DNA of 39,985 bases from Cyanobacteria bacterium SIG28 (GTDB lineage: Bacteria > Cyanobacteriota > Vampirovibrionia > Gastranaerophilales > Gastranaerophilaceae): assembly GCA_015152525.1 (NCBI GenBank), contig SUTU01000006.1:1-39985 (forward strand). Reading direction: 5' to 3'. Positions 5,980-29,409 of the stretch are shown one piece after another. The stretch's first letter is position 1, and every line of letters begins with the position of its first letter. A model generated the notes under the pieces. The model searched no databases. It had not been told where the DNA came from and worked only from the letters and a program-made list of their open reading frames with translations. The position numbers and the translations under genes were made by a program.

Positions 5980-8900
5980 CTAAAACTTAAACAAATTTTT
6001 CAATTCATCAGCCGTATTTTTAAGAGCTTCTTTTTGAGATTTTACAGAATCAACCACACCTTGAACAGTGTTTGTCAAATCAGTATCTACAGTTGTTTTT
6101 AAACTCTTAATCGTTTCTGTTATATTTTGTTTTTCAATAGCTGAAACATCAACTTCACTCAACCATTTGAAAGATTTAACCGAACTTGTACTTTCTAAAC
6201 CGCCATTGAATGTTACTTTAAAATCCTTATAAACCGTACTTCCGTTAGCCAAAGCAGGAATTGCGGCAATATTTTCACCTGCAGGATTTGCGGTCATAAT
6301 ATTAACTATATTAGCAGTTAAACTTCCAAATTTAGGAATATATGATAACAATTTATCTGCTGATAACTCACCTAAAGGTCCTAAAAGAGCGATAATGCTT
6401 GAATCTAATCTTCCAAGAATTGTTACATTAGTTGTCATATTTATAAGGTTAAATTTACCGGAAACAAAATATGCAAGAGTCTGACCGGAACTTTTTATAG
6501 AACTCAAATTTGCCCAACCGTTAGAGAAGGTCATATCGCCTGTAATATAATCATATTTAGCAGTTTCTTTAATTTCTTTTATATTGGAAAGCGCCGAAAC
6601 TGTTGTTTTTAATATAGAATTGCTAACAATATTGCTTGCACCAAAGAAGTTTTCAATTCGTCCTATATTTCCGAAAGAACCGTCATCAATTCTAAAACTC
6701 AATTTACCTGTTAATGAACGCATCATATCTTCATAATCCAAAACTTGTAGGTTCAATTTTGTATTAAACCCTAAAGTTCCTGACAAAGCGTTTTTAATTC
6801 CAACAGCACCGGCAACAGCTTTTTCTGCATTCAAACCTTCACCTTTAAAATCAACAAAAGTCTTTGCGTTAAACATATTGTAAACAATATTACCGCCTAT
6901 TTTACCGTCAAAAGCTGTTCCTTTAAGGTTCTTAAGATAGAAATTTTCTCCTTTCATAGAAAAATCAGAAGTCAGATTTTCAGCAACAATACCGCCCGAA
7001 GCAAACTTACCGACAGTCGCAAATCCGTTAAGAATTACACCGTTAAGTTTTGCCGTCAAATTCTCCATAACAACAGGTATTTCCGGAATATTCATCGAAG
7101 GCACATTAACTGTTCCTGATAAAATAGGGTTCATCATATTGCCAGTAATAGCAATATTACCGTTAAATGTTAGCTTTGATTTATCAAACATAGGCACAAT
7201 TATTGTGGAGTCTTGAGTAGTTGCAAAAACTAGATTCAGTGTCTGTTTGATAACATTCATATCACCCTTAAGCGTTGATTTTATATCACCGGTTGTTACA
7301 AAATCCAACCCGATTTTTTCAGTCATATAATTTTTAATTTTACCTACAACATTGAAATTGATTTTTTCAACTGTTACAGGTGTTTGAGCAATTTCAATTA
7401 CATCAGGCAAAATATTAGCTGTAACTTTTGGTATGCTAACACTTGCAGCAGGATTTATTAGTTTAATATTTGAACTAACTGCACTTCCTGAAAAAGTTTT
7501 GCCGTCAGATAAAATATCCACGGATGTAGCAGGAAGTTTTATTGTTGTATTTGCAGGAACATTTTTAATATCAATATTGTTTAAAGCAAATTTTGCTGTT
7601 GGCTTTATGCTATCTAATTTTCCGACAATATCAGCATTTAAAGAAATCGTTCCTGAATTTACGTTATTATCCTTTAGCAAAACAGCTTGACCAAATGCCA
7701 CTAACAAACCTTTTAGTCCTAATTTATCCGCCACCAAATGCAAATTCATTGATGCATCTTGTTTAATAGTTCCATAGAATTTTAGCGGTTGGTTCAAAAC
7801 AGAAAATCCAATATTTTTAATATCTACATTGTTATTATTTAAAACAACATCTGCATTGATATCATCAATAGAAACGTTGTACAAACCATATTTTATCTGT
7901 GAATTTGGTACTTTTAAGTATCCGTTTGAATTAATTGTTTTTAAGTCTGATTTGATATTAAAATCAGCATCCAAAGCACCATTTGCACTCAATGTTTGTA
8001 AATCTTTTATATTAAATGTCATAGCAAAAGCATTAAGAATTTTTATTATATTAGCAAGTTGCACACCTGATTTAATATTCAAATCAACATTAGGATTTTT
8101 TCCTGTTTTCACACAACCTTTAATTGTAGAAACTTCGTTTTCTGCTGTATATAAATTTGTATCAATATCAATTTTATGACCTTTAAAATCCAAAACAGCG
8201 TTGCTTTCAGGTAATTTTAACCCTTTTGGCGAAATAGATAAATTATCAAGCTTTATATAACCTTTGTTACCGTCATTAGTAAGAGTAATATCGCTATTCA
8301 CATTTGCAGTAATTTTATAATCATAAAGCCCTTTAAATATATCTAAAATATTGATTTTAAAATCAGAAGTAGTTTTTTCAACATTTTCTTCTTCAACAGG
8401 TTCTTGGTTGAACAATATATTATGCAAATCTATATCAGGCATTATTTTATTATTAACCTTAAGATTATAGCCAAACTGTTCACGTTCATCTAAAATCGCT
8501 TTACCACTTGCTAAAATTTTAACGTGTTTATTTAAAACAAAATCAGTAATTTCAGTTTTATCACCTTCTATTTCATATTTTTTACCATTAGAAGAGTCCA
8601 CAAACTCAATATCATAACCGCCTATTATAATATCAGGAAGATGATTTGAAATTCTTAAACCAAAAGGTAATTCCATAGTTTGTGTTTGTGTTTCAGTTTC
8701 TGTTGGCTGAGTTTCAGCAGGTTTCGGTAAATATTTTTCAATCTCAAAAGAGCCGTCTTTATTGAGATTAAATTTAGCGTCAAAATCACCTAATTTTACC
8801 AAGTCTATCTCAATTTTTTTTGCAAAAAGCGGTAACAAAGACATTTTTACTTCAAAATCTTTTGCAGTAATTATTTCTCTATTATCAGGAGTCAGAACAG

Positions 8901-9129
8901 AAAATTTACCTAATCCGGCACCAACTGTGAGTTTAGGTGTGGTAATAATTCTAAAACCTTCTATTTTAGAATTTAGTCCTGTTGCTTTTTTAATCTCATC
9001 ATTAACCATCGGAATATAATTATTTGCAATCGGTGAAATTATAAACGGCGCAACTAAAAACAAAGCATAAACTAAACCTAAAGTTGAAGCAGTTATAATA
9101 CTTGCCTTCTTAAGAAATTTTATATTCAT
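5980..9129 (-). CDS. AsmA-like envelope protein
   Basis: A 1049-residue protein with one N-terminal membrane segment (about residues 8-33, ASIITASTLGLVYALFLVAP) and a long periplasmic part made of repetitive beta-strand units, as in the AsmA/TamB/YhdP bridge-like lipid-transfer group. Residues 33-110 match the AsmA N-terminal region (INPANN-like start, then LLPLFAKKIEIDLVKL). About 780-845 resemble the AsmA C-terminal domain (LTGKLSFRIDDGSFGNIG). A low-complexity TQPTETETQTQT linker lies near 140. Residues 1000-1049 form a polar helix. The likely role is lipid or outer-membrane homeostasis; the cargo is not evident. GAGG lies upstream of the ATG. It follows a small exported protein gene with a 26-base gap, so the two probably form an operon. 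Confidence 0.85.
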   Translation of the reverse strand: MNIKFLKKASIITASTLGLVYALFLVAPFIISPIANNYIPMVNDEIKKATGLNSKIEGFRIITTPKLTVGAGLGKFSVLTPDNREIITAKDFEVKMSLLPLFAKKIEIDLVKLGDFDAKFNLNKDGSFEIEKYLPKPAETQPTETETQTQTMELPFGLRISNHLPDIIIGGYDIEFVDSSNGKKYEIEGDKTEITDFVLNKHVKILASGKAILDEREQFGYNLKVNNKIMPDIDLHNILFNQEPVEEENVEKTTSDFKINILDIFKGLYDYKITANVNSDITLTNDGNKGYIKLDNLSISPKGLKLPESNAVLDFKGHKIDIDTNLYTAENEVSTIKGCVKTGKNPNVDLNIKSGVQLANIIKILNAFAMTFNIKDLQTLSANGALDADFNIKSDLKTINSNGYLKVPNSQIKYGLYNVSIDDINADVVLNNNNVDIKNIGFSVLNQPLKFYGTIKQDASMNLHLVADKLGLKGLLVAFGQAVLLKDNNVNSGTISLNADIVGKLDSIKPTAKFALNNIDIKNVPANTTIKLPATSVDILSDGKTFSGSAVSSNIKLINPAASVSIPKVTANILPDVIEIAQTPVTVEKINFNVVGKIKNYMTEKIGLDFVTTGDIKSTLKGDMNVIKQTLNLVFATTQDSTIIVPMFDKSKLTFNGNIAITGNMMNPILSGTVNVPSMNIPEIPVVMENLTAKLNGVILNGFATVGKFASGGIVAENLTSDFSMKGENFYLKNLKGTAFDGKIGGNIVYNMFNAKTFVDFKGEGLNAEKAVAGAVGIKNALSGTLGFNTKLNLQVLDYEDMMRSLTGKLSFRIDDGSFGNIGRIENFFGASNIVSNSILKTTVSALSNIKEIKETAKYDYITGDMTFSNGWANLSSIKSSGQTLAYFVSGKFNLINMTTNVTILGRLDSSIIALLGPLGELSADKLLSYIPKFGSLTANIVNIMTANPAGENIAAIPALANGSTVYKDFKVTFNGGLESTSSVKSFKWLSEVDVSAIEKQNITETIKSLKTTVDTDLTNTVQGVVDSVKSQKEALKNTADELKNLFKF

Positions 9130-11724: not shown

Positions 11725-11760
11725 AAAAAGAACTTCCTTCTTTTGAAGAAAGTTCTTTTT
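11725..11760 (-). terminator. Intrinsic terminator of the binding-protein/TolC fusion gene
   Basis: AAAAAGAACTT (11725-11735) pairs with AAGTTCTTTTT (11750-11760), with inner TTC/GAA. It lies just past the stop codon at 11779 and is followed on the minus strand by a T run. Confidence 0.8.
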
Positions 11761-11778
11761 AATCTGCAAAAAATGTAA

Positions 11779-14211
11779 TTACAAACTAAAGTCAGCTTCT
11801 GCAGGAAGAATACTTGGAATATTTTTAATCCAATTTTTAGCTTCTTCATTAGCAGTAACCCAGTTTGAAGCAACCAAACCTCTTTGAACCCAAATAAGTT
11901 CCTTAAAGAATTCGTATTGAGAATTAAGAGCTTCAACTTTTGCTTTTGTATACATATGTTGAGCATCCGAAAGCTGAACAATCGGTGATTCACCTCTCAA
12001 GTAACGAGCTTTAACCATTTGATAGTTTTCAGCTTCTGCAAACATAGCTTTGTAAGATTTTTCAATCATAAAGTATTTAGCAATAGCTCTGTTTACAACA
12101 CTTCTAACATTCATTTCAAGCTCAGTATTTACTTGTTCTAAATACATATTTAATTCGTTCAATTCAGATTTACATCTAGCGATTTCAGCTATTTTTGTAC
12201 CACCTTCAATAGGTTTCCATTGAGCTGCAACCATCACACGACCGGAATTTCTGTCAAACGGAACACCATAAGGACCGCCGTACAACATGCTGGTGCCCAT
12301 CATAAGTTTTTGCATTGAAGGTGCACTGTTCCAGTTGTGTGGTAAGTTTCTGTCAAACTGAGAACCATATTCTAAAGTTAATTTAGCATTTGGCATTACA
12401 AATTTTTGAGCATAGTTTGAAATTTCTGCTTTTTTCATTGCAATAGCTGCTCTCAATTTTGTAGTTTCAGGCGACATATAAATAACTTGTTCCACTAACA
12501 TATCAGTGAATTTTTGCAATTTTTCAGGTGTTCTTACGTGATCAATGATATGAAGATCAGAAGTAAAGAATGCCGGATCTTTTGCTGTTAAAGGATTAAG
12601 AACAAAGTTTTCTTTTTGATCCTTAAATAAGATTTTGTTAATATGAATTTTTACGTTTTTGTATTCAGCTTTCATGCTAAGAAGTTTCTTTTCAGCTTCA
12701 TTAACTTCACCTGCCCAACGTAAAACTTCTTCGTTTCCGCATTTACCCATTTGCTGACGAACTCTTGAAATTGCTAAGTTTTCACGAGTTTCTTGCAAAT
12801 ATTCTTCTTGAACTTTAATTATGTTTTCAAAAATTAAAGAATCAATATATAAAGTGCTTAATTCAAGACCCATATTTGCTTCTGTTAAAGCTTTTTCAGC
12901 TTTATCAAATTTTAATTTTTTGTGTTTAACAATGATATTAGTTACCAAATCAGGTGCATAAATCATTTGATCCATACCAACCACAAATTGACCTACACGA
13001 GTCGGAACATCTTGGTAAGAATAAGCATAGTCATTATTGTAAGATTGATGACCTAAATCTATTCTTAATGTAGGTAAGTATTTTAAATAAGCAGCTGTAG
13101 TTGCTCTACGAGCAGCATTAATTAATTGTTTCTTTCTTGCAATATCTAAGTTGTTTTCAAACATTGTAGTTAACACAGTGTTCAAATCATACTTAGTAAC
13201 AGGTTTGTGAGAGATAATTTCACAATTGTTTAATAGTCTTAACGGTGCTGCATAACCTAAAGCTTCACCGGTATCAGAGTTGTAGAAAATAATTTCATCA
13301 TCATAGAATGCAACTTTTTCTGTTTTTACGTTGTTACCTTTAAGAACACCATAGATATTGAAAGATGTAGCTTCTGCTAACTTTTTATCCAAATCTCTTG
13401 TTGATGTACCTAACAATGCACCTAAATCAACATCTTCACGTCCCAAACCGGAGAAAGAAGGTAATTTTTTAGCACTCAAGATGCTATATAATTCTTTTCT
13501 TTGTTCAGTTGATAAGTTGAATAAAGGTGTTACAAAAACTGAATCTACATCAGAAGGTAATTTTGCCAAAGAAGCTTTTACATCAGCATTAACAGGAATA
13601 ACTACAAAATCTTGATTACAACCTTTTTCTTTAAGTTTTCCTGCAATCAATGAAGTCCAGTCTTTTTGGGTTTTGTAAAAAGACTCGTTCATCAAAACTG
13701 CTGTTTTGTTGTGAGTCGGTACTAATTTGTTAAATAATACAAAGTCTTTAACATATTGTTGAATAGGATTAAAGAAATCTGTTCCGAAATCTCTTAAACC
13801 ATATTGATCAATAGTAACAACAAATTTGTTTTTATTTTGTTTTGCTGAATAGTAATTGCTGGACATATAACCCATAGAAATTACCATTGTTGCTTTTGAA
13901 GCCAAAGCTTTTTCTGATACATTCGCTGCACCTTTTTCAGTCCAATCACCCGTAAAAATTAATTCATTAGGGAAAGAAGCTTTGTAATCAGGTAACAATG
14001 ACCTTGTAATTGTACTTTGGAAAGTTTTTAAAACAGACGCATTTTTGTCAGAAGGTCCGTCAAAAACAAACGCAAAATCAATACTTCTTGCATTTGGTGC
14101 AGGTTGCATAACTCTCTGTTGCGGAGATGTTTGAATTGCAAGTGCACTGCTCATACCGGTAAAGCCAAATAACATAACAGTAGCTAATACCGTACTAATT
14201 GTTCTCTTCAT
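11779..14211 (-). CDS. Periplasmic-binding-protein-like domain fused to a TolC-like outer-membrane channel
   Basis: An 810-residue exported protein. I prefer ATG 14211 to 14220: GGAG is 10 bases away instead of one, and the signal peptide then starts MKRTISTVLATVMLFGFTGM, ending SALA. Residues about 42-315 look like an ABC-type substrate-binding fold of the ABC_sub_bind kind: IDFAFVFDGP, a helix-strand series, then LPSFSGLGREDVDLGALLGT and LAEATSFNIYGVLKG. From about 340 the sequence is a TolC/OEP channel: VLTTMFENNLDIARKK, long alternating coiled-coil helices (about 440-550 and 675-780), and two beta-barrel stretches (RIDLGHQSYNN, KLTLEYGSQFD and MVAAQWKPIEGG). Normal TolC proteins are about 450-500 residues. 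No adjacent inner-membrane pump or adaptor is present. The fusion suggests a channel with a built-in ligand sensor or cargo receptor. Confidence 0.82.
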   Translation of the reverse strand: MKRTISTVLATVMLFGFTGMSSALAIQTSPQQRVMQPAPNARSIDFAFVFDGPSDKNASVLKTFQSTITRSLLPDYKASFPNELIFTGDWTEKGAANVSEKALASKATMVISMGYMSSNYYSAKQNKNKFVVTIDQYGLRDFGTDFFNPIQQYVKDFVLFNKLVPTHNKTAVLMNESFYKTQKDWTSLIAGKLKEKGCNQDFVVIPVNADVKASLAKLPSDVDSVFVTPLFNLSTEQRKELYSILSAKKLPSFSGLGREDVDLGALLGTSTRDLDKKLAEATSFNIYGVLKGNNVKTEKVAFYDDEIIFYNSDTGEALGYAAPLRLLNNCEIISHKPVTKYDLNTVLTTMFENNLDIARKKQLINAARRATTAAYLKYLPTLRIDLGHQSYNNDYAYSYQDVPTRVGQFVVGMDQMIYAPDLVTNIIVKHKKLKFDKAEKALTEANMGLELSTLYIDSLIFENIIKVQEEYLQETRENLAISRVRQQMGKCGNEEVLRWAGEVNEAEKKLLSMKAEYKNVKIHINKILFKDQKENFVLNPLTAKDPAFFTSDLHIIDHVRTPEKLQKFTDMLVEQVIYMSPETTKLRAAIAMKKAEISNYAQKFVMPNAKLTLEYGSQFDRNLPHNWNSAPSMQKLMMGTSMLYGGPYGVPFDRNSGRVMVAAQWKPIEGGTKIAEIARCKSELNELNMYLEQVNTELEMNVRSVVNRAIAKYFMIEKSYKAMFAEAENYQMVKARYLRGESPIVQLSDAQHMYTKAKVEALNSQYEFFKELIWVQRGLVASNWVTANEEAKNWIKNIPSILPAEADFSL

Positions 14212-14270
14212 AAATTTCATACTCCATTAATAAAACATCAATAAAAAATTTAAAATTTTATGCAACTAGA

Positions 14271-19082: not shown

Positions 19083-22000
19083 ATGTTACAAGAAGCAACA
19101 AGAGCTATTAATTCTGCATTCAATAATAGTTTTATAAAAAAATTAAGCCAATATCTTCATGATTGCGTTCGTGAAGAGGTTAAGAGTTCAACTTTTAGAA
19201 ACTTAAAAGCTGATAGGGATAATAAGTGGATTTTCTTAGACCAAGAAGATACACTATTTACAAAAGGTCTTGAATATTTAAGACTGGAAGGTTCTGATGC
19301 AAAGTTAACAGAACTTATGATACAGTCTGAAACAAGTCAAAAAGATAAATATTTAATATACGGCTATTTATTTCTCGTAGGGAAAACAAAAACCGGTAAA
19401 AAGAACGAATTTTTAACTCCGCTACTTTATTCTCCTTGTCGTTTGGAAAGAAATGGCGTGAACATAAATTGTATTCTTACAGACGAATTTATCTCATTAA
19501 ACACCGGTGCACTAACTGCATTGATGAAAAAAAGTGATGATGAAGATGAAACAGAACAACTTTTAGAAGGTTTGCTGGATGTAGTACCTACTACTCCTAT
19601 TACGGAAGAGAAAATGAATATTTTCTTAACCACCCTAAAATCAATTGTTCCGGACATTGATATATCTTTAAATCACGAAATGGATGTACAAGAAGATAAC
19701 ATTTCAAAAGATTTTTATAATGAAAATTCAAGTATCAAAATAAATTCTGAAAACATTGATGAAATTATTGAAGAAGAGGAAAACGCTAAAAAAACAACAA
19801 TTGCACTTGAAAAAATACATTTGACAAACCAAAGCGCAATTATTTTAACAAAACGTCCTTCCGTAACTGCAGGTGTTTTACACGAATTAACCCAAATTGC
19901 AGAAAAACCTAGTGGTGTTTATAGAGAAACCGTTTTAAATCTGATTAACGAAGAATATACCCAATCAAAACCTACAGATTGTCAACAAAAAACTTTAGCT
20001 GATTTTTATCCTGTAACGCCGTTATCATTATCAGATGCACAGCTTAATGTAGTAAGAAATATAGAAAATACTAAATTGGTTTCTGTTTTTGGTCCTCCCG
20101 GAACGGGTAAATCTCAAACAATCGTAAACCTTGTAGCTCATCTTATTGCTAACGGAAAAACCGTTTTAGTTGCTTCCAGAATGGACAAAGCCGTTGATGT
20201 TGTAGCAGAAAGACTTAATTCACTCGGCGCACCATTTTTGGCTTTAAGAGCCGGTAGATTAAATTATCAAAGAGAATTAAGTATGCAACTCCAAGACTTG
20301 TTATCTAATAAAGTTGATTTAGATGACGGTATTGAAAGCTCTATTATGTGCGATGTTTCCGACATGGAAGCTCTTTTGAAATCAGTTAATGAAATGGAAA
20401 GAAAAGCAGAGCAAATTATTAAGCTTGAAAACGAATGGAATCTTATTAATGAACAAATTAAGCTCGAAGAACCTGCTCACAAAAATCATTATTTTATAAA
20501 AAATAATTTAAAAGGTGATGAAATAAAATCTATTGAAGAAATCATTTCAACACTTAACTCTAATCAAGAAAAATCAGGATTTTTAGCTAATTTTAAAAAT
20601 GCATCTTCAATCGGTAAATTAAAAAAGATACTAAAACTTTCCAATTTTGATGTTAATAACGAAAATCTAATGATTTTATCAACAGAGTTAGAGTTTGCAA
20701 AACTTATTTGTAAATCCAGAATGATTGAAACAGAAATTCAATCAATCGGAAATATACATATTATTTCTGAACAACTTAGAACAATGCGTAAAAAGCAACG
20801 CAAATTAGCTATTGATATTCTTAAATCAAAACGCAGAGAAGCACTTAAAGGTTTGATGAGAGATTCAATCAAACGTCAAAGATTATTTGTACACTCAAAA
20901 TCTCTTGTGGAAAGAAAGAAAAACCTTCAAAACAGATTACTTGAAACAGAAGATTTCAAACCTTTATTAGAAGCCTTCCCTTGCTGGTGCGTTACGACTT
21001 ATGCCGTTTCCGGCTCATTACCGCTTAAACCGGGATTATTTGATGTTGTAATTATTGACGAAGCTTCTCAATGTGATATTGCAAGTTGTTTCCCTATTTT
21101 ATACAGAGCTAAAAAAGCTGTAGTAGTTGGCGATGACAAACAATTACCGCATTTGTCATTCTTAGAAAAAGCAAAAGAACAATCATTCTTATCTCAATAT
21201 GGAATAAACGACAGATACCAATTAATGTGGCGATTTAGAACTAACTCTATGTTTGATTTAGCAAACTATTATTCTATGCATCCTGTTTTGTTGGATGAAC
21301 ATTTTAGAAGTTTACCGCCGATTATTAATTATTCCAACAAAGAATTTTACGGAAACAGAATTAAGGTTATGCGCAGAAACGACAATTCTTCTAAAGTTAT
21401 TGAAGCTGTTGTTGTTCCTGACGGAAAAGTTGATTCTGATGCAACAAGAAATCTTCCTGAGATAGAAGCATTGGTAAAAAGGCTTTATGATATCGTTGTT
21501 GAAGATGAAAGAACAAATCCGGATAAACCGGTCAGTATCGGTATAATTTCACCTTTTAGAGCGCAAGTTGAACAGTTGAAACTTTCGGTTTCCAAAGTTC
21601 TTTCCGAACATATGATGGAAAAACACCAAATTGAAATCGGTACGGCTCACACTTTCCAAGGTGATGAAAGAGATATTATGCTTATATCTTGGGCTTATGC
21701 ACAAAACAGTTATCCACAAAGCTTAATATTTTTACAAAAACCAAACTTGTTTAATGTTGCAATAACAAGAGCAAGATTTAAAACTATTAACTTCATCTCA
21801 AAAAATCCAAGAGAGTTACCGGAAGGTATTCTAAGAAGTTATTTTGGTTTTATTGAAGAATATGAAAATCGTTATTCTTTAATAAATTCTGATGATTTTG
21901 ATGAAAATATTTATAAAAACTCGTTTGAAAAAGAAGTCGCACAAGCTTTTCGTGATTTAGGACACAAAGTGGTTTGCGGTGATGAAATTGCAGGGCTTAG

Positions 22001-22196
22001 CGTTGACTTATTAATTGATGACAAATTTATAGTAGAATGCGACGGCGTTGAAGATAAAATTCCAAACAAAGTTTCTAATATGAAAAAACAAACAATTCTT
22101 GAACGTTCAGGACTTAAAGTTTCCAGAATTACTGCAAGAGAATGGAATTATTCGCCAAAAGCTTGTATTGATAGAGTTATTAACTCAAATCTATAA
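19083..22196 (+). CDS. Superfamily 1 (Upf1-like) helicase with C-terminal nuclease-like domain
   Basis: A 1037-residue protein. The N-terminal 300 residues are not recognised and include an acidic stretch (EIIEEEENAKK). The SF1B motor has Walker A GPPGTGKS (337-344), Walker B IIDEAS (about 657-662), motif III GDDKQLP (about 687), HFRSLPPI (motif IV region), AHTFQGDERDI (about 853) and the arginine-finger motif NVAITRAR (about 890). A helical/coiled insert (400-620) splits the first RecA domain. Residues about 940-1037 resemble Vsr/DUF559-type endonucleases: SFEKEVAQAF, SVDLLIDDKFIVECDG, then an ERSG-L-V-RIT strand, keeping D...E-C-D residues of a PD-(D/E)XK site. Such helicase-nuclease fusions occur in repair and in anti-phage systems. 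It stands alone here. Its stop overlaps the convergent gene's stop. Confidence 0.88.
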   Translation: MLQEATRAINSAFNNSFIKKLSQYLHDCVREEVKSSTFRNLKADRDNKWIFLDQEDTLFTKGLEYLRLEGSDAKLTELMIQSETSQKDKYLIYGYLFLVGKTKTGKKNEFLTPLLYSPCRLERNGVNINCILTDEFISLNTGALTALMKKSDDEDETEQLLEGLLDVVPTTPITEEKMNIFLTTLKSIVPDIDISLNHEMDVQEDNISKDFYNENSSIKINSENIDEIIEEEENAKKTTIALEKIHLTNQSAIILTKRPSVTAGVLHELTQIAEKPSGVYRETVLNLINEEYTQSKPTDCQQKTLADFYPVTPLSLSDAQLNVVRNIENTKLVSVFGPPGTGKSQTIVNLVAHLIANGKTVLVASRMDKAVDVVAERLNSLGAPFLALRAGRLNYQRELSMQLQDLLSNKVDLDDGIESSIMCDVSDMEALLKSVNEMERKAEQIIKLENEWNLINEQIKLEEPAHKNHYFIKNNLKGDEIKSIEEIISTLNSNQEKSGFLANFKNASSIGKLKKILKLSNFDVNNENLMILSTELEFAKLICKSRMIETEIQSIGNIHIISEQLRTMRKKQRKLAIDILKSKRREALKGLMRDSIKRQRLFVHSKSLVERKKNLQNRLLETEDFKPLLEAFPCWCVTTYAVSGSLPLKPGLFDVVIIDEASQCDIASCFPILYRAKKAVVVGDDKQLPHLSFLEKAKEQSFLSQYGINDRYQLMWRFRTNSMFDLANYYSMHPVLLDEHFRSLPPIINYSNKEFYGNRIKVMRRNDNSSKVIEAVVVPDGKVDSDATRNLPEIEALVKRLYDIVVEDERTNPDKPVSIGIISPFRAQVEQLKLSVSKVLSEHMMEKHQIEIGTAHTFQGDERDIMLISWAYAQNSYPQSLIFLQKPNLFNVAITRARFKTINFISKNPRELPEGILRSYFGFIEEYENRYSLINSDDFDENIYKNSFEKEVAQAFRDLGHKVVCGDEIAGLSVDLLIDDKFIVECDGVEDKIPNKVSNMKKQTILERSGLKVSRITAREWNYSPKACIDRVINSNL

Positions 22197-23285
22197 TTCT
22201 AAATCTTTGTTAATTTTATCAACAATCTTTTTATAATCCTTACTAACAGGAGTACTTTGTGATGTTTTAATAACATCCAGAAAAACTTTTTCATTGTGAT
22301 TAGAATTATTCAAAACCTTTGAAGCTTCGATATTTGCAGGAACTATTAAACCTGTTTTAGCAAAATATTGAGCACTTTTTTGTGAGCTTAAATAATTTAC
22401 AAATTTTTTTGCTGAATTTTTATGCTTAGAATTTTTCGAAATTGCCCAACCTGAAACATCTATATAATGCGGTGATTTCCCTTCAGGAAAATTTATCACA
22501 TACCAATTAAAATCAGCTTTTTCGGTAATTTTTGGATACATCCAACGACCGGAAAGATATAAACCGATTTTTTTATCCAAAAACATTTGTGCCAAAGTAG
22601 AACTGCCAACTTGACTTTTAGAAGGAGCAATACGATATTTTTTCACCAAATCTTTGTAAAAATTTATCCCATGCCGGCTATTTTGATTATCTATTATTAA
22701 ATTATAATTTTTATCAAAAATTCCGCCACCAAAATAAGTCAAATAAGGCATTGCCCAATAAATTTCATCTTCATAACTTATCCCGTATATATTATTTTTT
22801 GTTGCTTTTTGTGCAATATCTAACAACATATCTAAATCCCAGTTTTGAGAGATTTCACCAACGATATCGGAATTTACATAAAATACAAGGCTTGAAACAT
22901 CTCTGGGAATTGCTAATAGTTTATTATTATAACTTAATCCGTCTAATGCTTGAGAATAAAATTCACCGTCCAAAACCATATTGCTCAAATCTTCCAATTC
23001 TTTTTCATAAATCGGCAAATTCAAATTGTTTATGAATAACACATCCGGTGCAGTATTAGAAGCAAATAGCAAATGAATTTTTTGAAAATAGTTTTGAGGT
23101 ATATGCAAAAATTTAACTGAAATATCAGAATTTTCTTGTTCAAAATCAGCTATAATTTTTTTTAAAATTTTAACTTCTGTTACTGAACCCCAAGAAGAAA
23201 AAACAATCTCTTCTTTAGATGTTTTTGCAGAACAACCCGTTAAAAAATTTAAAACTAAAAAAACAGTAAAAAGTTTTTTTAACAT
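22191..23285 (-). CDS. Family 1 extracellular solute-binding lipoprotein
   Basis: A 364-residue ABC-type sugar-binding-like protein. The signal ends with the lipobox LTGC (about 15-18), so it should be lipid-anchored. The first lobe begins IVFSSWGSVTEVKILKKIIA, then FEQENSDISVKF and APDVLFINNLNLPIY, all typical of MalE/UgpB relatives. IPRDVSSLVFYVNSDI and SGRWMYPKI are conserved lobe-2 regions, and VSGWAISKNSKHKN fits the hinge motif. No permease or ATPase genes are adjacent. Instead it overlaps the FimV-like gene by 7 bases and ends a chemotaxis-type gene row, so it may feed a receptor and not a transporter. It shares CTATAA at its stop with the convergent helicase gene. Confidence 0.88.
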   Translation of the reverse strand: MLKKLFTVFLVLNFLTGCSAKTSKEEIVFSSWGSVTEVKILKKIIADFEQENSDISVKFLHIPQNYFQKIHLLFASNTAPDVLFINNLNLPIYEKELEDLSNMVLDGEFYSQALDGLSYNNKLLAIPRDVSSLVFYVNSDIVGEISQNWDLDMLLDIAQKATKNNIYGISYEDEIYWAMPYLTYFGGGIFDKNYNLIIDNQNSRHGINFYKDLVKKYRIAPSKSQVGSSTLAQMFLDKKIGLYLSGRWMYPKITEKADFNWYVINFPEGKSPHYIDVSGWAISKNSKHKNSAKKFVNYLSSQKSAQYFAKTGLIVPANIEASKVLNNSNHNEKVFLDVIKTSQSTPVSKDYKKIVDKINKDLEL

Positions 23286-25744
23286 AAATCCATCACATAT
23301 TTGATTTCATCTTCAGTAACGTCAATCACAAATTTGTTAAGTCCTATCCTTATTAAATATCTGGAAGTTTCATCCGATATTTTTTCACTTAACCTTGCTT
23401 GGATTTTTTCGCTTTTTAACGCATCATATTTTTTTATTACAGTTATTTTTTTATTCACATAGCTCAAAACAACATAACCATTTTCACCTTTCGCAAGATG
23501 ACAACCTTTTCTTCTGTCAATCTCAACAGAACTAACCACTACATAAGTTTCACCACCGACTACCATATCTATCTTTTTCTTAGCCGGAGCCGGTTGTTGT
23601 TTTGCACTTGCAGAAACAGGTTTTCTATCAGCTTGTATCGCAGGTCTAAGTTTTTCTTTTTGTGGCATTGCTTGTTTTTGAGGAACAACTCTTTTTAAAT
23701 CAGCTTCCACTGACGGTTTTTGAGCCTGATGTTTTATTTGTGGTTTAACAGGTTGTTTAACTTGAGGTTCCGGTTTTGCCTGTGATTGTTGAGCCTCAAC
23801 TTTCGGCTGTTGTGGAACTGCAGGTTGCGGTTTAATACCCTCTTGATTTGTTAACTGTTTATCCTTTTCTTCAATTGCTTTTTGTGGCTGAGAAACTTCA
23901 TTGTTAGCTGTTTCAGGTTTTTCAATTTGTTCTGTTAAAGATTTTTCGGAAACAATTTCTTCAATTTTTTCTTCTTCAACAACTAATTCGTCTGACAAAT
24001 CTTCAATATCATTTAAGATTTCAAAATCTCTTGTACCGTCATCAAAAGGCTTAAACTCAACATTTAATATGTTATTTAACAAAGCACTCTCATCAACAAC
24101 AACTTCTGGTTTTTCTTCTTTATATTTTTGAGGATTTTTTAAAGCATCTTCCAAATCAGGCAGTTCATCATTTAAACTTAGTTTTTCAACTTCATAGCTT
24201 GTATCAACATATTGAATAGAAGCTGACGGTTTAGATTTGTAAGCGTCTTTATTGTTTATTTCTTTCGATAAATCCGGTAATCCTTCCGCTATTGATAAGG
24301 TGCTTACTTCATAGCCTTCGCTAACATATATAACTTCACTTTGTTTTTTCTCTTGTACTAATTTCCCTTTTGCTTTATTTTCTAAAGCTTCTGATAAATC
24401 CGGTAACATGTCTTTAACATTTAGAGTTAACATAGAAGATTTTTTTCTCAAATGTTCTTTATCTGCTTCAATCTCTTTAGTCATTGTTTGAGTACGTTCA
24501 GGATTTGTTCTTAAATCAGTTACAAAATCACTATCCAACTCAACATGAATAAGATTATTTAAAGCTTCAATATCCTCAGGACTAAATGAAACGTTTCTTT
24601 CTATAGAATATGTTATAATTAAATCTTCTAAAATTTCTTTTTTTGATGGTCTTTTTTTAATAGGATTTGACACTAAATATTTATCAATATTACGGAGTGT
24701 ATCATCATTAATTTCATTATTTAATAACTTATTAATACGCACAGCATCATCATTAGTAAATTTTAAATCAGCATTATTTATTATTTCGTTATATAGTGCC
24801 TCATCATATAGCGGTAAATTCTCTTCGAGAACTTTTTCCGGTTCTATATCTTCATCAAATGAAAAACCTTGCAAAAATTCTTCAAGTGCTAAGTTTTCAT
24901 CATCATCCTCTTCTACTTCTGCTTCCGGATTTTCAACCTGAACCTGTTGCTTGAACAGTTCATCCATATCAACAGCTTTTGCTTTTTCAATAGTTATATT
25001 TTTTTCTTCTTCAAGTTTTCGCAATTTATCTAAATTCGAACTACCGGAAGATTGACTACTAAACCTTGAAATATCACTGTTTTTTCTCTGTACACTAACT
25101 ACAGGTCCTGTTTTACGTGGTTCAGGTTTTGGTTTTTCAGTTTTTTTAGCATCTTTAAAATCAACTTCTATATTATTATTATCACCAACTAAATCATTTA
25201 GTTTATCTCTTCCGTTTTTATACGCAAGAAGAATCAATAACATTACAACCAAAAAACCTAATATTAGCATTAAGTTAAATTGTGTATCTTGACCTGTTAT
25301 AGAATTTAATCCGGACCCGCCTTGTATCGCCGCTTGACCTTGTCCTTGACCTGATAAAAACAGTTGAGCCTTACCATACAAAGCTATTTCAGGGTTTACG
25401 GTTACAGTAATTTTTGTATAACCATCAGCTTCATTAGTATAAGGGAAAGTTTCTATTTTAACATCTTTAACACACCCGCCAACTTTACTTAAATTCGGCT
25501 GTTCTACAACACTATTAACATTAGGTAAATTCAATACATAAGTTTGAGAATTTATTTTGGTTGGAACAACTGCACCTGAATACACATCTTTTGTCTGTAA
25601 AACCATATTTATGCTTTTGTCCTTTCTTGGGACAAAATTTAATTCCATTAAGCTGTTTTTATATCTTTCCGACGCAAAAGAGCCAGCCACAGTAACAACT
25701 GAAGCAAGTACAAGTGCTAAAGTTCTCTTCTTGAAACGTTTCAT
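23279..25744 (-). CDS. FimV-like transmembrane scaffold protein
   Basis: An 821-residue protein with a signal peptide (KRTLALVLASVVTVAGSFAS), an extracytoplasmic beta-rich region (30-130, somewhat AMIN-like), a Gly/Gln linker, and a single transmembrane helix (157-175, LMLILGFLVVMLLILLAY). About 540 mostly acidic cytoplasmic residues follow, including three copies of an L-x4-LPDL-x2-AL-x-N motif (about 440-455, 484-500, 521-540). A Pro/Gln/Lys-rich stretch (630-720) leads to a compact C-terminal domain (about 725-821, starting VVGGETYVVVSSVEIDRR). The layout recalls FimV/TspA, which recruit pilus-regulating chemosensory proteins at the pole, but without clear LysM or TPR motifs. It lies between CheW and a binding protein. 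No ribosome site is visible. The homology is by architecture only. Confidence 0.6.
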   Translation of the reverse strand: MKRFKKRTLALVLASVVTVAGSFASERYKNSLMELNFVPRKDKSINMVLQTKDVYSGAVVPTKINSQTYVLNLPNVNSVVEQPNLSKVGGCVKDVKIETFPYTNEADGYTKITVTVNPEIALYGKAQLFLSGQGQGQAAIQGGSGLNSITGQDTQFNLMLILGFLVVMLLILLAYKNGRDKLNDLVGDNNNIEVDFKDAKKTEKPKPEPRKTGPVVSVQRKNSDISRFSSQSSGSSNLDKLRKLEEEKNITIEKAKAVDMDELFKQQVQVENPEAEVEEDDDENLALEEFLQGFSFDEDIEPEKVLEENLPLYDEALYNEIINNADLKFTNDDAVRINKLLNNEINDDTLRNIDKYLVSNPIKKRPSKKEILEDLIITYSIERNVSFSPEDIEALNNLIHVELDSDFVTDLRTNPERTQTMTKEIEADKEHLRKKSSMLTLNVKDMLPDLSEALENKAKGKLVQEKKQSEVIYVSEGYEVSTLSIAEGLPDLSKEINNKDAYKSKPSASIQYVDTSYEVEKLSLNDELPDLEDALKNPQKYKEEKPEVVVDESALLNNILNVEFKPFDDGTRDFEILNDIEDLSDELVVEEEKIEEIVSEKSLTEQIEKPETANNEVSQPQKAIEEKDKQLTNQEGIKPQPAVPQQPKVEAQQSQAKPEPQVKQPVKPQIKHQAQKPSVEADLKRVVPQKQAMPQKEKLRPAIQADRKPVSASAKQQPAPAKKKIDMVVGGETYVVVSSVEIDRRKGCHLAKGENGYVVLSYVNKKITVIKKYDALKSEKIQARLSEKISDETSRYLIRIGLNKFVIDVTEDEIKYVMDLC

Positions 25745-25745
25745 A

Positions 25746-25759
25746 GTTAATATATTAAC
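25746..25759. promoter_or_regulatory. 14-bp perfect palindrome at the start of the FimV-like gene
   Basis: GTTAATATATTAAC is a perfect dyad one base upstream of the ATG at 25744, where a ribosome site would be expected. A minus-strand TTGTCA, 18 bases, AATAAT promoter could sit just upstream, which would make the palindrome an operator or an initiator-region element. AT-rich palindromes also arise by chance, so this is tentative. Confidence 0.4.
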
Positions 25760-25833
25760 ATAATTATTAAAAAGAATATATCATTTTGACAAAAAATCAT
25801 CAATTTAGAGCATATATTTGTCAGTTTTATAAT

Positions 25834-26829
25834 TTACATATCAGTTATAATAATTTTTTTATCTGAAGAAATATGTTCAATATTTAAAACTGTATACAAA
25901 GTTTTGTTATAAATAAACTCATTTGCATAATAACTTTCAGAACGTTCATTATTTATAGTTTCTTGATAATCAAACAATTCATTTATTTTATCTATCAAAA
26001 GGGCAAGTTTTAATTCATTGCATTTGATTATAATTACAGGTTTTTTATCACTTATAACAGACTCCGGTAAAGACAAGAATTTTTTTAAATTCAATACCGT
26101 AATATAATCACCCCTAAGATTCATAATCCCTTCAATAAAATCCGGCGTTCCCGGAACATTTGTTATTGAAGTATCTTTTAAAACTTCTTTAACATAATCT
26201 AAGGCTATACAATAATAATCATTATTTAGATTAAAAGAAATGTATTTATTTTTAGCATGCAATTCTTCTGAAACCAATCTTAATGAAGATTTTTCAGCAA
26301 TAGATTTTGTCCTTTTAGCCATTATCTTCTTTGATGCTTCATCTTGAGGAAATAAAGCCTGTATATCTACTGTAGAATCTATTGAACTGTGTTGCTTTAA
26401 TAAATTTTCAAGTGCATATATATTAACAATAAAAATTGTTTCATTATTGTATTTGTATAAAGACTCAATTACCATTTTGGCATCAAAAAACGGAATTTGA
26501 TCAACCAAAGCAGAGTCAAAAGGTAAAATACCAATAATCTTATCTGTTATTATCCCAAAAATTACTTCATCTGTTTTTACAATCAAAAGTTCATTATGAG
26601 AATTATAAGGTGTTACATCAATATTGAGATAAAAACGAATATCAACTACATTTATTACAAAGTTGTTATATTTTAACAATCCGACAATATTATTCGGAAG
26701 CTTTTGCGGATAATCTAAAGCCGGAAGTTTCATAATTTCAAGAACGCTTGCCGTATTTATTGCATACTTACTATCACCTACTTGAAAATATAGGTGAGTA
26801 TTTTTCTTTTGCTCTAAGTAATTATTCAT
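25834..26829 (-). CDS. Double-CheW chemotaxis coupling protein
   Basis: A 331-residue protein made of two CheW-like beta-barrel domains (about 10-150 and 190-325), joined by a charged linker. Domain 1 has YFQVGDSKYAINTASVLEIM, NNIVGLLKYNNFVINVVDIR and LLIVKTDEVIFGIITDKI. Domain 2 has YISFNLNNDYYCIALDYVKE, VPGTPDFIEGIMNLRGDYIT and VLNLKKFL, the classic CheW pattern. Domain 2 is closer to consensus. CheW bridges chemoreceptors and CheA at the inner membrane, and a tandem version could alter array geometry. It overlaps the diguanylate cyclase gene upstream by 8 bases (ATGAATAA), so the two are co-translated. Confidence 0.88.
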   Translation of the reverse strand: MNNYLEQKKNTHLYFQVGDSKYAINTASVLEIMKLPALDYPQKLPNNIVGLLKYNNFVINVVDIRFYLNIDVTPYNSHNELLIVKTDEVIFGIITDKIIGILPFDSALVDQIPFFDAKMVIESLYKYNNETIFIVNIYALENLLKQHSSIDSTVDIQALFPQDEASKKIMAKRTKSIAEKSSLRLVSEELHAKNKYISFNLNNDYYCIALDYVKEVLKDTSITNVPGTPDFIEGIMNLRGDYITVLNLKKFLSLPESVISDKKPVIIIKCNELKLALLIDKINELFDYQETINNERSESYYANEFIYNKTLYTVLNIEHISSDKKIIITDM

Positions 26830-28273
26830 GTAAAATAACCCTATTTCTTCCGCTCTCTTTTGCTTTATATAAAGCTTCGTCCGCAGATTTCAACAAATCC
26901 GCCGAACTGTTAAATATCGGATAATTCATCGTTAAACCAATACTTACAGTTACTTTTGCCTTAACACCGTTATAATCAAAATTATATTCCTCAACCATTC
27001 TTCTTAATCTCTGAACAGGAATAGTTGCACCTTCGATATTAGTTTCAGGCATTATCATCACAAGCTCTTCACCGCCGTAACGATATAATAAGTCGGTTTT
27101 ACGAAAAGCTTGTTTCATTAAATCCGCAACAGTTTTTAAGACATAATCTCCATATTGGTGTCCGTAATTGTCATTAACCTTTTTAAAGAAATCAATATCC
27201 AAAATTGCCAATGAAAAATCAGAAGGATGCCTTTTAGTACGGTTAAATTCTTGCTCTAAACTTATTTCAAGCTGACGTCTGTTATACAATCCTGTTAAAC
27301 CGTCAAGAACAGACATAAATTCTTTCTCAGTATATTGATATTTCATTTTAAATATCGCAAGTAGCTCGCTAATCATAATATCAAAATATCTGAATGATGA
27401 ATAATCTATTTCTTGTCGTGTATAAAAACAAATTCCGCCAATAAGTTTTTTATCAAAAATTAAAGGAATAATAATTTTTGAAGTTAAATCCCCAAATTCG
27501 CACTCCAATTCTTTACCCAAAAGCATTCTTACAACTTCAAATTTAGAAGTTTTCATCGTTTTATGCTCTTCCATTTTTCGGAAAAAGTCATAATTAACAT
27601 CTGAAAGCAAACTTTTTGGCAAATTTCTGCCAAGAGTGTCTATATATAAAATATTCTCTGCAAAATCATCAGGTGAAGCAAAATAAATACCTGCAACATG
27701 GTATTCTACAAATGAACTCAAAAGCGAAAACATTTTTTCAACTAATATTCTTTCATAATTCAAAAAGTCGCTTAAGTTTCTAAATTCATTTGAAAAAGTA
27801 CTTTTCATTAACAAATCATTCAAAATAAAATTCAATCTGAATTGCGCTGAATTATCAGCACCGTCTTTTTGAATTAAAGCATTTTTATACTCATCAGTTA
27901 TAGGATATCTTCTGACTGTAGCATTAATATTTGTTGCTAATTCATTAATATCAATAAGTTTGGATAAAAACAATTGCGCACCCGCTTTTTTACCCCAAAA
28001 ACTATCAATTTTATTGTCTAATATTGTCAACAAAATAACCGGAATTTTTTTCGTTTCATCAACATTTTTGATTATTCTGCACAATTGATAACCGTCAATT
28101 GCAGGCATTACAATATCTGACACAACAATATCAGGCGCAGTTGAATACAATTTCCGATAAGCTTCAGAACCGTTTTGAGCAGTTTCTACTTCAAACCCGC
28201 ACTGAACAAGCCCTTCTTCTAAAAATTTAAGTTGAGTTTCATTATCTTCTACTAATAAAATTTTTATTGCCAT
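26822..28273 (-). CDS. Response regulator diguanylate cyclase (REC-GAF-like-GGDEF)
   Basis: A 483-residue protein. The N-terminal receiver has ILLVEDNE, phosphoacceptor D53 (VVSDIVMP) and LLTILD. A middle region (about 150-310) resembles a GAF domain. The C-terminal GGDEF domain starts near 318 with LDGLTGLYNRR, and has ILDIDFFKKVNDNYGHQYGD and active-site GGEEL (about 399-403). An RxxD inhibitory I-site (RKTD) lies five residues upstream, so it should make c-di-GMP and be product-inhibited. Phosphorylation by the neighbouring CheA is the obvious input. It is first in a minus-strand operon with CheW. The ribosome site is weak. An 84-base AT-rich gap separates it from the divergent MCP gene. 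Confidence 0.93.
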   Translation of the reverse strand: MAIKILLVEDNETQLKFLEEGLVQCGFEVETAQNGSEAYRKLYSTAPDIVVSDIVMPAIDGYQLCRIIKNVDETKKIPVILLTILDNKIDSFWGKKAGAQLFLSKLIDINELATNINATVRRYPITDEYKNALIQKDGADNSAQFRLNFILNDLLMKSTFSNEFRNLSDFLNYERILVEKMFSLLSSFVEYHVAGIYFASPDDFAENILYIDTLGRNLPKSLLSDVNYDFFRKMEEHKTMKTSKFEVVRMLLGKELECEFGDLTSKIIIPLIFDKKLIGGICFYTRQEIDYSSFRYFDIMISELLAIFKMKYQYTEKEFMSVLDGLTGLYNRRQLEISLEQEFNRTKRHPSDFSLAILDIDFFKKVNDNYGHQYGDYVLKTVADLMKQAFRKTDLLYRYGGEELVMIMPETNIEGATIPVQRLRRMVEEYNFDYNGVKAKVTVSIGLTMNYPIFNSSADLLKSADEALYKAKESGRNRVILHE

Positions 28274-28357
28274 GTATTCATATATTCCAATTTTTATAGT
28301 TTTAGTATAAAATAATTATATAATAAATGTTAAAAAAAAACTATAGGAGAGAAGAAA

Positions 28358-29404
28358 GTGCTTAATGATTGGAATTTTGGATTGAAACAGAAGTTTAGTA
28401 TAAAATGCAATGTTGATTTGCTTGTATTTTTCATAGTATTTGCAATGTTTGTAGTATTTGCACTAAAACATCATGTCGCACCGCACGAAGTTGTTGGTTA
28501 CTTTACAATAATTCTACTCTTATTCCTATCATCTCATTTAATAACAAAACAATGGATTACAAGAGCTATTAAAAAATCTTTAAACTACCAATCTGACTCA
28601 TTATCAGAAGCAACAGCTGATATAATTAACACTTTAAATTCTCAAAAACAGATACTTGAAGGACTTAATATTAATTCTAAAAATATTTCTTCTTTGATTG
28701 ATAAACTAAAAGGACTTTCAACAGAAGTTTTGGTAACTTCTAAAAACACCGAAAAACAAGTTAATCAGTCTATATTATTCTCTCAAAAAGAACACGAAGC
28801 TATTTCTGCAAATGCTGATAAAATGTTAGTTTTGCGTCAAAAAATTCAAATGATTGCAGAATTAATTCTTGAGCTTTCTGAACACACTCAACAAATCGGC
28901 AGCACAATCAGCGTTGTTGATGATATTGCAGAGCAAACCAACATGCTTGCACTTAACGCTGCTGTTGAAGCTGCTCGTGCAGGTGAACATGGTAAAGGTT
29001 TTGCGGTTGTTGCAGGTGAAATCAGAAAACTTGCAGACGAGTCTAAGCAAGCAATCACAAAAATCACATCTTTAACCAGCAACATTCAATACACTACAAA
29101 TTCAACCGTTATGGCAACAGAAGAAGGTTCTAAAGAAATTGAAAACGTTGTTAAAGATATCAATCTTGTTTCTTCAAATTCAGAAACTCTATTGAGCTTA
29201 ATAACAGATATTTTAGAATCACTTGAACTACTTAATCAAAATGCAGAAAAACAAAACAATATTATTGAAAGACTTAATGTTATTGATGATGAAAGTAAAA
29301 CAATTGCTGAAAATTTATCTCAAATAATGAATACAAATTCGGAAAAACTTACCAAATTAACCAATATATCAAACGAAATAAAAAATTCAGCAATAGAAGG
29401 TTAG
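28358..29404 (+). CDS. Methyl-accepting chemotaxis protein without periplasmic sensor domain
   Basis: A 348-residue receptor. Two transmembrane helices (about 20-37 and 45-62) are joined by a loop of only about 7 residues, so there is no ligand domain and no HAMP. The cytoplasmic coiled coil contains the conserved tip [20 protein letters not shown] (about 190-210), followed by [19 protein letters not shown]. Signals must come through the membrane, the cytoplasmic part or a partner protein; the lipoprotein and FimV-like genes opposite are candidates. It starts at GTG, with AGGAGA 7 bases upstream. The CheA gene begins 5 bases after its stop. Confidence 0.92.
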
Positions 29405-29409
29405 AATAA

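Follow-up and report, generated by a model that had tools for sequence, protein, structure and literature searches.

A TolC-type outer-membrane channel fused to an N-terminal type I substrate-binding domain in Gastranaerophilales, with relatives in two other phyla

The window analysed here, a 39,985-nucleotide stretch from the 1.89-Mb genome of the Gastranaerophilaceae member Cyanobacteria bacterium SIG28, a gut-dwelling relative of cyanobacteria, encodes a single chain in which a type I substrate-binding domain of ~290 residues precedes a complete channel of the TolC family. We consider it probable (at roughly 60%) that this protein is the outer-membrane factor of a tripartite efflux system, that its periplasmic N-terminal domain binds a ligand or a partner, and that it borrows an adaptor and a pump from unlinked loci. 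Sequence, predicted fold and relatives together document the two folds, their fusion, its conservation, the grouping of the fused channels, and the pump operons in which divergent relatives are encoded. A first-pass annotation had described the product as one exported chain joining a binding-protein-like lobe pair to a complete channel, with no pump or adaptor adjacent and no characterised protein of this layout. The unbroken frame, the signal peptide and the recovery of both folds bear out that description; inspection of the gene neighbours in the window revealed no adaptor or pump gene adjoining the fusion; and a literature search, with subscription journals mostly outside its scope, returned no paper on such a fusion. 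Both halves are known families, and the layout is already present in databases under plain product names.

The positions of the gene and of its parts are collected in Table 1. A GGAG, which resembles a ribosome-binding site, lies 10 nt before Met4 and 1 nt before Met1, which favours Met4, the start that the first-pass annotation had used. A hydrophobic N-terminus comparable to the signal peptide of the fusion is present in the aligned relatives, and we infer that the chain is exported and trimerises in the outer membrane. The hairpin beyond the stop codon scores -21.6 kcal/mol with its flank (z -5.8 relative to shuffled sequences). The downstream neighbour, by sequence a phosphoglycerate kinase gene, starts 175 bp further on, and the upstream neighbour is a divergent Orn/Lys/Arg decarboxylase gene. 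Given the terminator-like hairpin after the stop codon and the divergent gene upstream, the fusion gene is probably monocistronic and not co-transcribed with the phosphoglycerate kinase gene. A promoter scan returned sites no commoner than in shuffled sequence, and no ABC importer permease or ATPase genes adjoin the fusion in the window.

Table 1 Features of the fusion gene and its product, in window coordinates.
Feature	Position	Strand	Remarks
SBP-TolC fusion gene	11779..14220	-	813 codons/aa from Met1, stop-free frame; full length kept in relatives
Start choice, Met4	14211	-	Gives 810 aa; better supported than Met1
Signal peptide, residues 1-29	14134..14220	-	From sequence; without lipobox cysteine
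Type I (cluster B) substrate-binding domain, residues 45-335	13216..14088	-	Two alpha/beta lobes; AF2 model, structural and profile matches
TolC-family channel, residues 343-792	11845..13194	-	Two OEP repeats, four barrel strands, long periplasmic helices
Periplasmic tip 1, residues 485-506	12703..12768	-	Equivalent hairpin contacts adaptor in TolC
Periplasmic tip 2, residues 735-757	11950..12018	-	Conserved residues in divergent fusions
Variable surface loop, second barrel hairpin, residues ~631-657	12250..12330	-	From alignment; low pLDDT at 632-654
Terminator-like hairpin	11725..11765	-	Directly 3' of fusion stop codon; 16-bp stem then T-run

Elsewhere in the window, a signalling cluster (22191-32370) begins with an SBP_bac_8 solute-binding protein and further comprises an 821-aa protein without a Pfam family that has a membrane anchor and a long low-complexity region (23279-25744), a CheW-like protein (25834-26829), a response regulator-GGDEF protein (26822-28273), an MCP (28358-29404) and a CheA-CheW-receiver protein (29410-32370). 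A 1037-aa SF1 helicase with a C-terminal MTES_1575 nuclease domain (19083-22196) shows NCBIfam similarity, far below the cut-offs, to the anti-phage proteins ProA, Hhe and PLuB, and its gene is possibly a defence gene. A 1049-aa AsmA/YhdP-like protein (5980-9129) is a candidate for a role in inter-membrane lipid transport.

The N-terminal domain, modelled alone with AF2 (pLDDT 83, pTM 0.76), has both lobes complete. Its best structural matches (VIA-align) are 3lkv (VC_1101; Z 20.2), 3lft (SP1069/TrpX with Trp; Z 19.6) and 6hni (CD0873 with Tyr; Z 19.4), each aligned over 267-269 residues at 3.4-3.8 A, whereas full-length type I binders of other families reached Z 14.7 or less; a short Rhodothermus binding protein, which covers one lobe, gave Z 16-17. 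Searched against the PDB, a profile built from nine divergent fusions (A5) retrieved the same three proteins (E 5e-9 for 3lkv, 4e-7 for 6hni and 1e-6 for 3lft), and PF04392 scored above its cut-off both in a fusion from Sulfuricurvum, described below, and in an order-level relative, each of which also matched OEP. Searches nearer to the window were less productive. The N-terminal half of the window protein had no match in Pfam, PF04392 included; the NCBIfam TrpX model (NF041285) gave E 7e-5 and 22 bits, far below its cut-off of 390; the window protein, used alone as a PDB query, returned nothing useful; and a profile of 64 close N-terminal domains had no substrate-binding-protein match in the PDB, its matches to Tyw1 (E 0.3 or worse) being weak and taken as chance. 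Since a PF04392 search of the window's genome recognised no gene, the fusion itself included, this model evidently misses the window clade. The first-pass annotation had called for separate searches of the two parts and had expected a type I binding protein at the N-terminus. PF02321 identified the channel directly, and the binding domain, which Pfam failed to detect in the window protein, was recovered through relatives and the model, with Z 19-20 to binders of the TrpX branch. On the structural matches, the divergent-fusion profile and the PF04392 match in Sulfuricurvum, we firmly assign the predicted domain to the type I substrate-binding fold, closest to the TrpX/ABC_sub_bind branch. The type I cluster B fold of TrpX, CD0873 and VC_1101 (PF04392; 3lft, 6hni and 3lkv) extends over both lobes, with homology visible by way of the divergent fusions.

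These three relatives serve amino-acid ABC importers as free binding proteins, and they differ from the window domain in their pocket as well as in standing alone. The clefts of CD0873, VC_1101 and SP1069 hold Tyr, Phe and Trp, respectively (PMC6816091). The Asp of a (T/I)DN loop, situated at the cleft in the second lobe of TrpX, CD0873 and VC_1101, where it presumably contacts the ligand, is absent in every fusion examined. The window clade keeps Asn235 and Pro232 without exception and, in our reading of the alignment, Glu263 of CD0873, the residue that recognises the Tyr hydroxyl, aligns with the invariant Gly260. Judged from these sequences, the aromatic-amino-acid pocket of the known kind is not kept in the fusions. 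Because the (T/I)DN Asp is missing in all of them, amino-acid binding of the known kind appears unlikely, and the N-terminal domain has likely come to bind a different ligand or to serve as a scaffold.

A scaffold role would mean that the domain binds no small molecule and acts as a structural or protein-binding module at the equatorial belt, docking peptidoglycan, a lipoprotein or the adaptor. The loss of the signature pocket Asp is consistent with such a role, as are cleft residues that differ strongly between lineages, the partial loss of the second lobe in Cetobacterium (see below), and the appearance of the LpoA C-domain among the Foldseek matches. The type I fold of LpoA activates a peptidoglycan synthase. 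A further precedent is YbjP, which decorates TolC and is bound between the equatorial belt and the membrane (PMC13082787). However, conservation of the binding domain is close to that of the channel (mean top-residue frequency 0.79 versus 0.80), both lobes of the domain are complete in Gastranaerophilales, and conservation there peaks at residues 49-57, 113-120, 137-144 and 225-232, at the ends of predicted strands that, from the fold, would line the inter-lobe cleft. Moreover, in structural matching the three amino-acid binders come first and outscore LpoA by a wide margin. We therefore regard a purely structural or docking domain as possible, though on balance unlikely.

The C-terminal half is readily recognised as a channel, with two stretches matching PF02321 (OEP) at E 2.7e-27 and 96.2 bits against a curated cut-off of 22. 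In the predicted model of the whole chain (41 sequences; mean pLDDT 74), each protomer contributes two strand pairs and long paired helices in the TolC arrangement, with barrel strands at residues 384-393, 408-421, 611-625 and 658-667 (DSSP of the model), and the channel part matches TolC models and structures with Z 26.5 over 403-415 residues (4.3 A at 415 residues). At a whole-chain pTM of 0.56, the model does not fix with confidence how the two domains sit relative to each other. The same OEP repeats, strands, helical barrel and tip hairpins are found in the outer-membrane factors of type I secretion and efflux (PF02321; E. coli TolC, 1ek9; Salmonella ST50, 5bun; OprM), but in TolC, ST50 and OprM the signal peptide leads into an N-terminus that is short or lipidated, where the window chain has its binding domain. 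Gly492 of the first periplasmic tip is invariant across 11 divergent fusions, and Tyr740, Gly743 and Ala753 of the second are at least 90% conserved among divergent fusions. Both tip hairpins keep a glycine-centred pattern and, by analogy with TolC, may dock an adaptor. The alignment suggests that the loop of the second barrel hairpin is exposed and free to vary. Three long relatives (L010, L014 and L004; up to 945 aa) carry Ala-rich insertions in the loop aligned to window residues 631-657, as well as a segment rich in Lys, Gln and Ala that separates the signal peptide from the binding domain (window residues 30-44).

In all seven of the more divergent loci that we read, the fusion lies in a pump operon that also encodes an adaptor and an energised pump. 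The gene order is FUSION-MFP-RND, with genes that adjoin or overlap, in four order-level genomes (G034, G040, G050 and G035), and two fusions of Cetobacterium somerae (Fusobacteriota) are followed by MFP and then RND; RND-type operons with the fusion occur in two sister families and in Cetobacterium. The operon of Sulfuricurvum kujiense (Campylobacterota) reads TetR-FUSION-HlyD-RbbA/ABC-2-permease, so that here the fusion, unlike the lone window gene, is accompanied by HlyD and ABC-2 exporter genes. Across 77 loci read in the window clade, the fusion is never found within four ORFs of an adaptor, an RND pump or an ordinary channel, and generic ABC ATPases are near it in three. Reading of the sequences assigned a MarR-like gene directly upstream of the fusion in five of these loci and a divergent TetR-like gene beside it in four; the clade has no conserved neighbourhood beyond these scattered genes. 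Regulators of both kinds are common beside efflux genes. In one f6 genome (G038, L129:9451-14412), an Omp85/BamA-like and then a Skp/OmpH-like gene follow the fusion on the same strand, possibly an outer-membrane biogenesis context.

The window's genome encodes three other channels, three adaptors, one RND pump and one unlinked MacB-type permease. Each adaptor adjoins one of the other channels, so that the fusion, if it works in a tripartite system here, must share an adaptor. In G000, a MacA-like adaptor and its channel (C16:39860-42580) have no MacB beside them, and the sole MacB-type permease found is on another contig (C9:117980-118657); an unlinked pump of this type could possibly share channels. 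Because the 77 loci are without a linked adaptor or pump, the case for a pump partnership in the window clade rests on the relatives. The first-pass annotation had proposed that a built-in receptor could gate efflux or capture a ligand. As a stand-alone receptor-gated channel, the fusion would, in Gastranaerophilaceae, dispense with adaptor and pump, its binding domain opening the duct for a ligand to leave or enter. The 77 isolated loci accord with this, as do the gene's own terminator and monocistronic layout and the pairing of every adaptor found in the genome with another channel. Yet E. coli TolC is unlinked to most of its pumps, and missing linkage is hence weak evidence; the adaptor-docking tips are kept; and divergent relatives in three phyla encode the fusion with an adaptor and an RND or ABC-2 pump, at seven of seven such loci. 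We consider a stand-alone channel distinctly improbable.

Within the order, the binding domain is present in 83 of 286 genomes, one copy each, and no stand-alone copy was met among the 286. In 79 of the 83 carriers it is fused in an uninterrupted frame of 788-945 aa; of the remaining four genes, two are truncated at contig ends and the other two are interrupted. Full-length relatives in Gastranaerophilales, from independent assemblies, share 47-80% identity. The contig scan used close-clade patterns and returned the close clade only. Across 386 genomes of the phylum, coverage of the N-terminal domain was confined, among the matches listed, to families f1 and f6; in the photosynthetic cyanobacteria of this survey, the channel part matched alone. 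A search outside the phylum, which covered plasmids, identified the fusion on pSULKU01 of S. kujiense over 95% of the query at 22% identity; its product (WP_041667226.1, 'ABC transporter substrate binding protein') has the same SBP-OEP layout. The Cetobacterium 'TolC family' proteins (WP_330112282.1 and WP_240222000.1; 726 and 723 aa) have a homologous N-terminal domain (profile comparison with the fusions: 96.3% probability, E 2e-9 over 261 columns) and differ from the window protein in their reduced, partly lost second lobe and in the adaptor and RND pump encoded downstream.

A tree built on the channel part alone, from 16 fused channels of three phyla and eight ordinary channels, has one branch that parts the fused, Cetobacterium included, from the ordinary (support 92/89, short of the strict threshold). 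Of the pump-linked relatives, the one encoded in the RND operon of G050 comes closest to the window clade (94/94). The separation of fused from ordinary channels agrees with a single origin of the fusion but does not prove it. A frame error, an assembly chimera or a chance apposition of two genes can be rejected: the same intact frame recurs in nearly all carriers of the order and in independent assemblies, the fusion occurs in two other phyla, and no free-standing copy of the domain was met among the 286 genomes.

In the reading that we favour, the fusion would be the outer-membrane exit duct of a tripartite efflux system, with a chain that starts with a periplasmic domain of the TrpX/ABC_sub_bind branch. 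The N-termini of TolC/OprM-family proteins lie at the equatorial belt, at mid-height on the alpha-barrel and not at its tip (compare PMC8277102, PMC13082787). Three N-terminal domains would accordingly ring the barrel at this belt, near the peptidoglycan and the docked adaptor; the periplasmic mouth, where the first-pass annotation had placed them, is an unlikely site. The cleft of each domain would bind a small ligand or a partner, and the loaded domain would hand its cargo to the adaptor funnel, in effect collecting cargo for the pump; alternatively, the ligand-loaded domain may favour opening or assembly of the duct. In Gastranaerophilaceae, the gene would have left the pump operon, its product sharing an adaptor and a pump encoded elsewhere. 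Because the same fused chain occurs with RND and with ABC-2 pumps, its role more likely concerns the duct, or some class of cargo, than any single pump. CusF/SilF of Cus/Sil efflux is likewise a periplasmic binder that works with a tripartite pump (compare PMC10656224), although the likeness is one of working only: CusF/SilF is a small, separate metal-binding protein that is not homologous to the N-terminal domain and lies off the channel chain. A more specific proposal, which we find rather doubtful, is that of a ligand-sensing duct, in which the N-terminal domain, by closing around a metabolite or drug in the periplasm, would open or recruit the channel, the outer-membrane part would select the cargo as well as the inner-membrane pump, and the Gastranaerophilaceae duct would be shared by unlinked pumps or act alone.

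Which substrates a tripartite system exports is attributed mainly to its inner-membrane pump and adaptor. The occurrence, in three phyla and alongside RND as well as ABC-2 pumps, of a TolC-type duct that carries a substrate-binding domain suggests that the outer membrane may be a second site of selection or of control by a ligand. One shared architecture has been hidden under the names 'ABC transporter substrate binding protein' and 'TolC family protein'. Since the N-terminal domain can be made alone, its ligand is open to direct search. The fusion looks like an unstudied variant of the efflux pump, one that may sense or collect its cargo.
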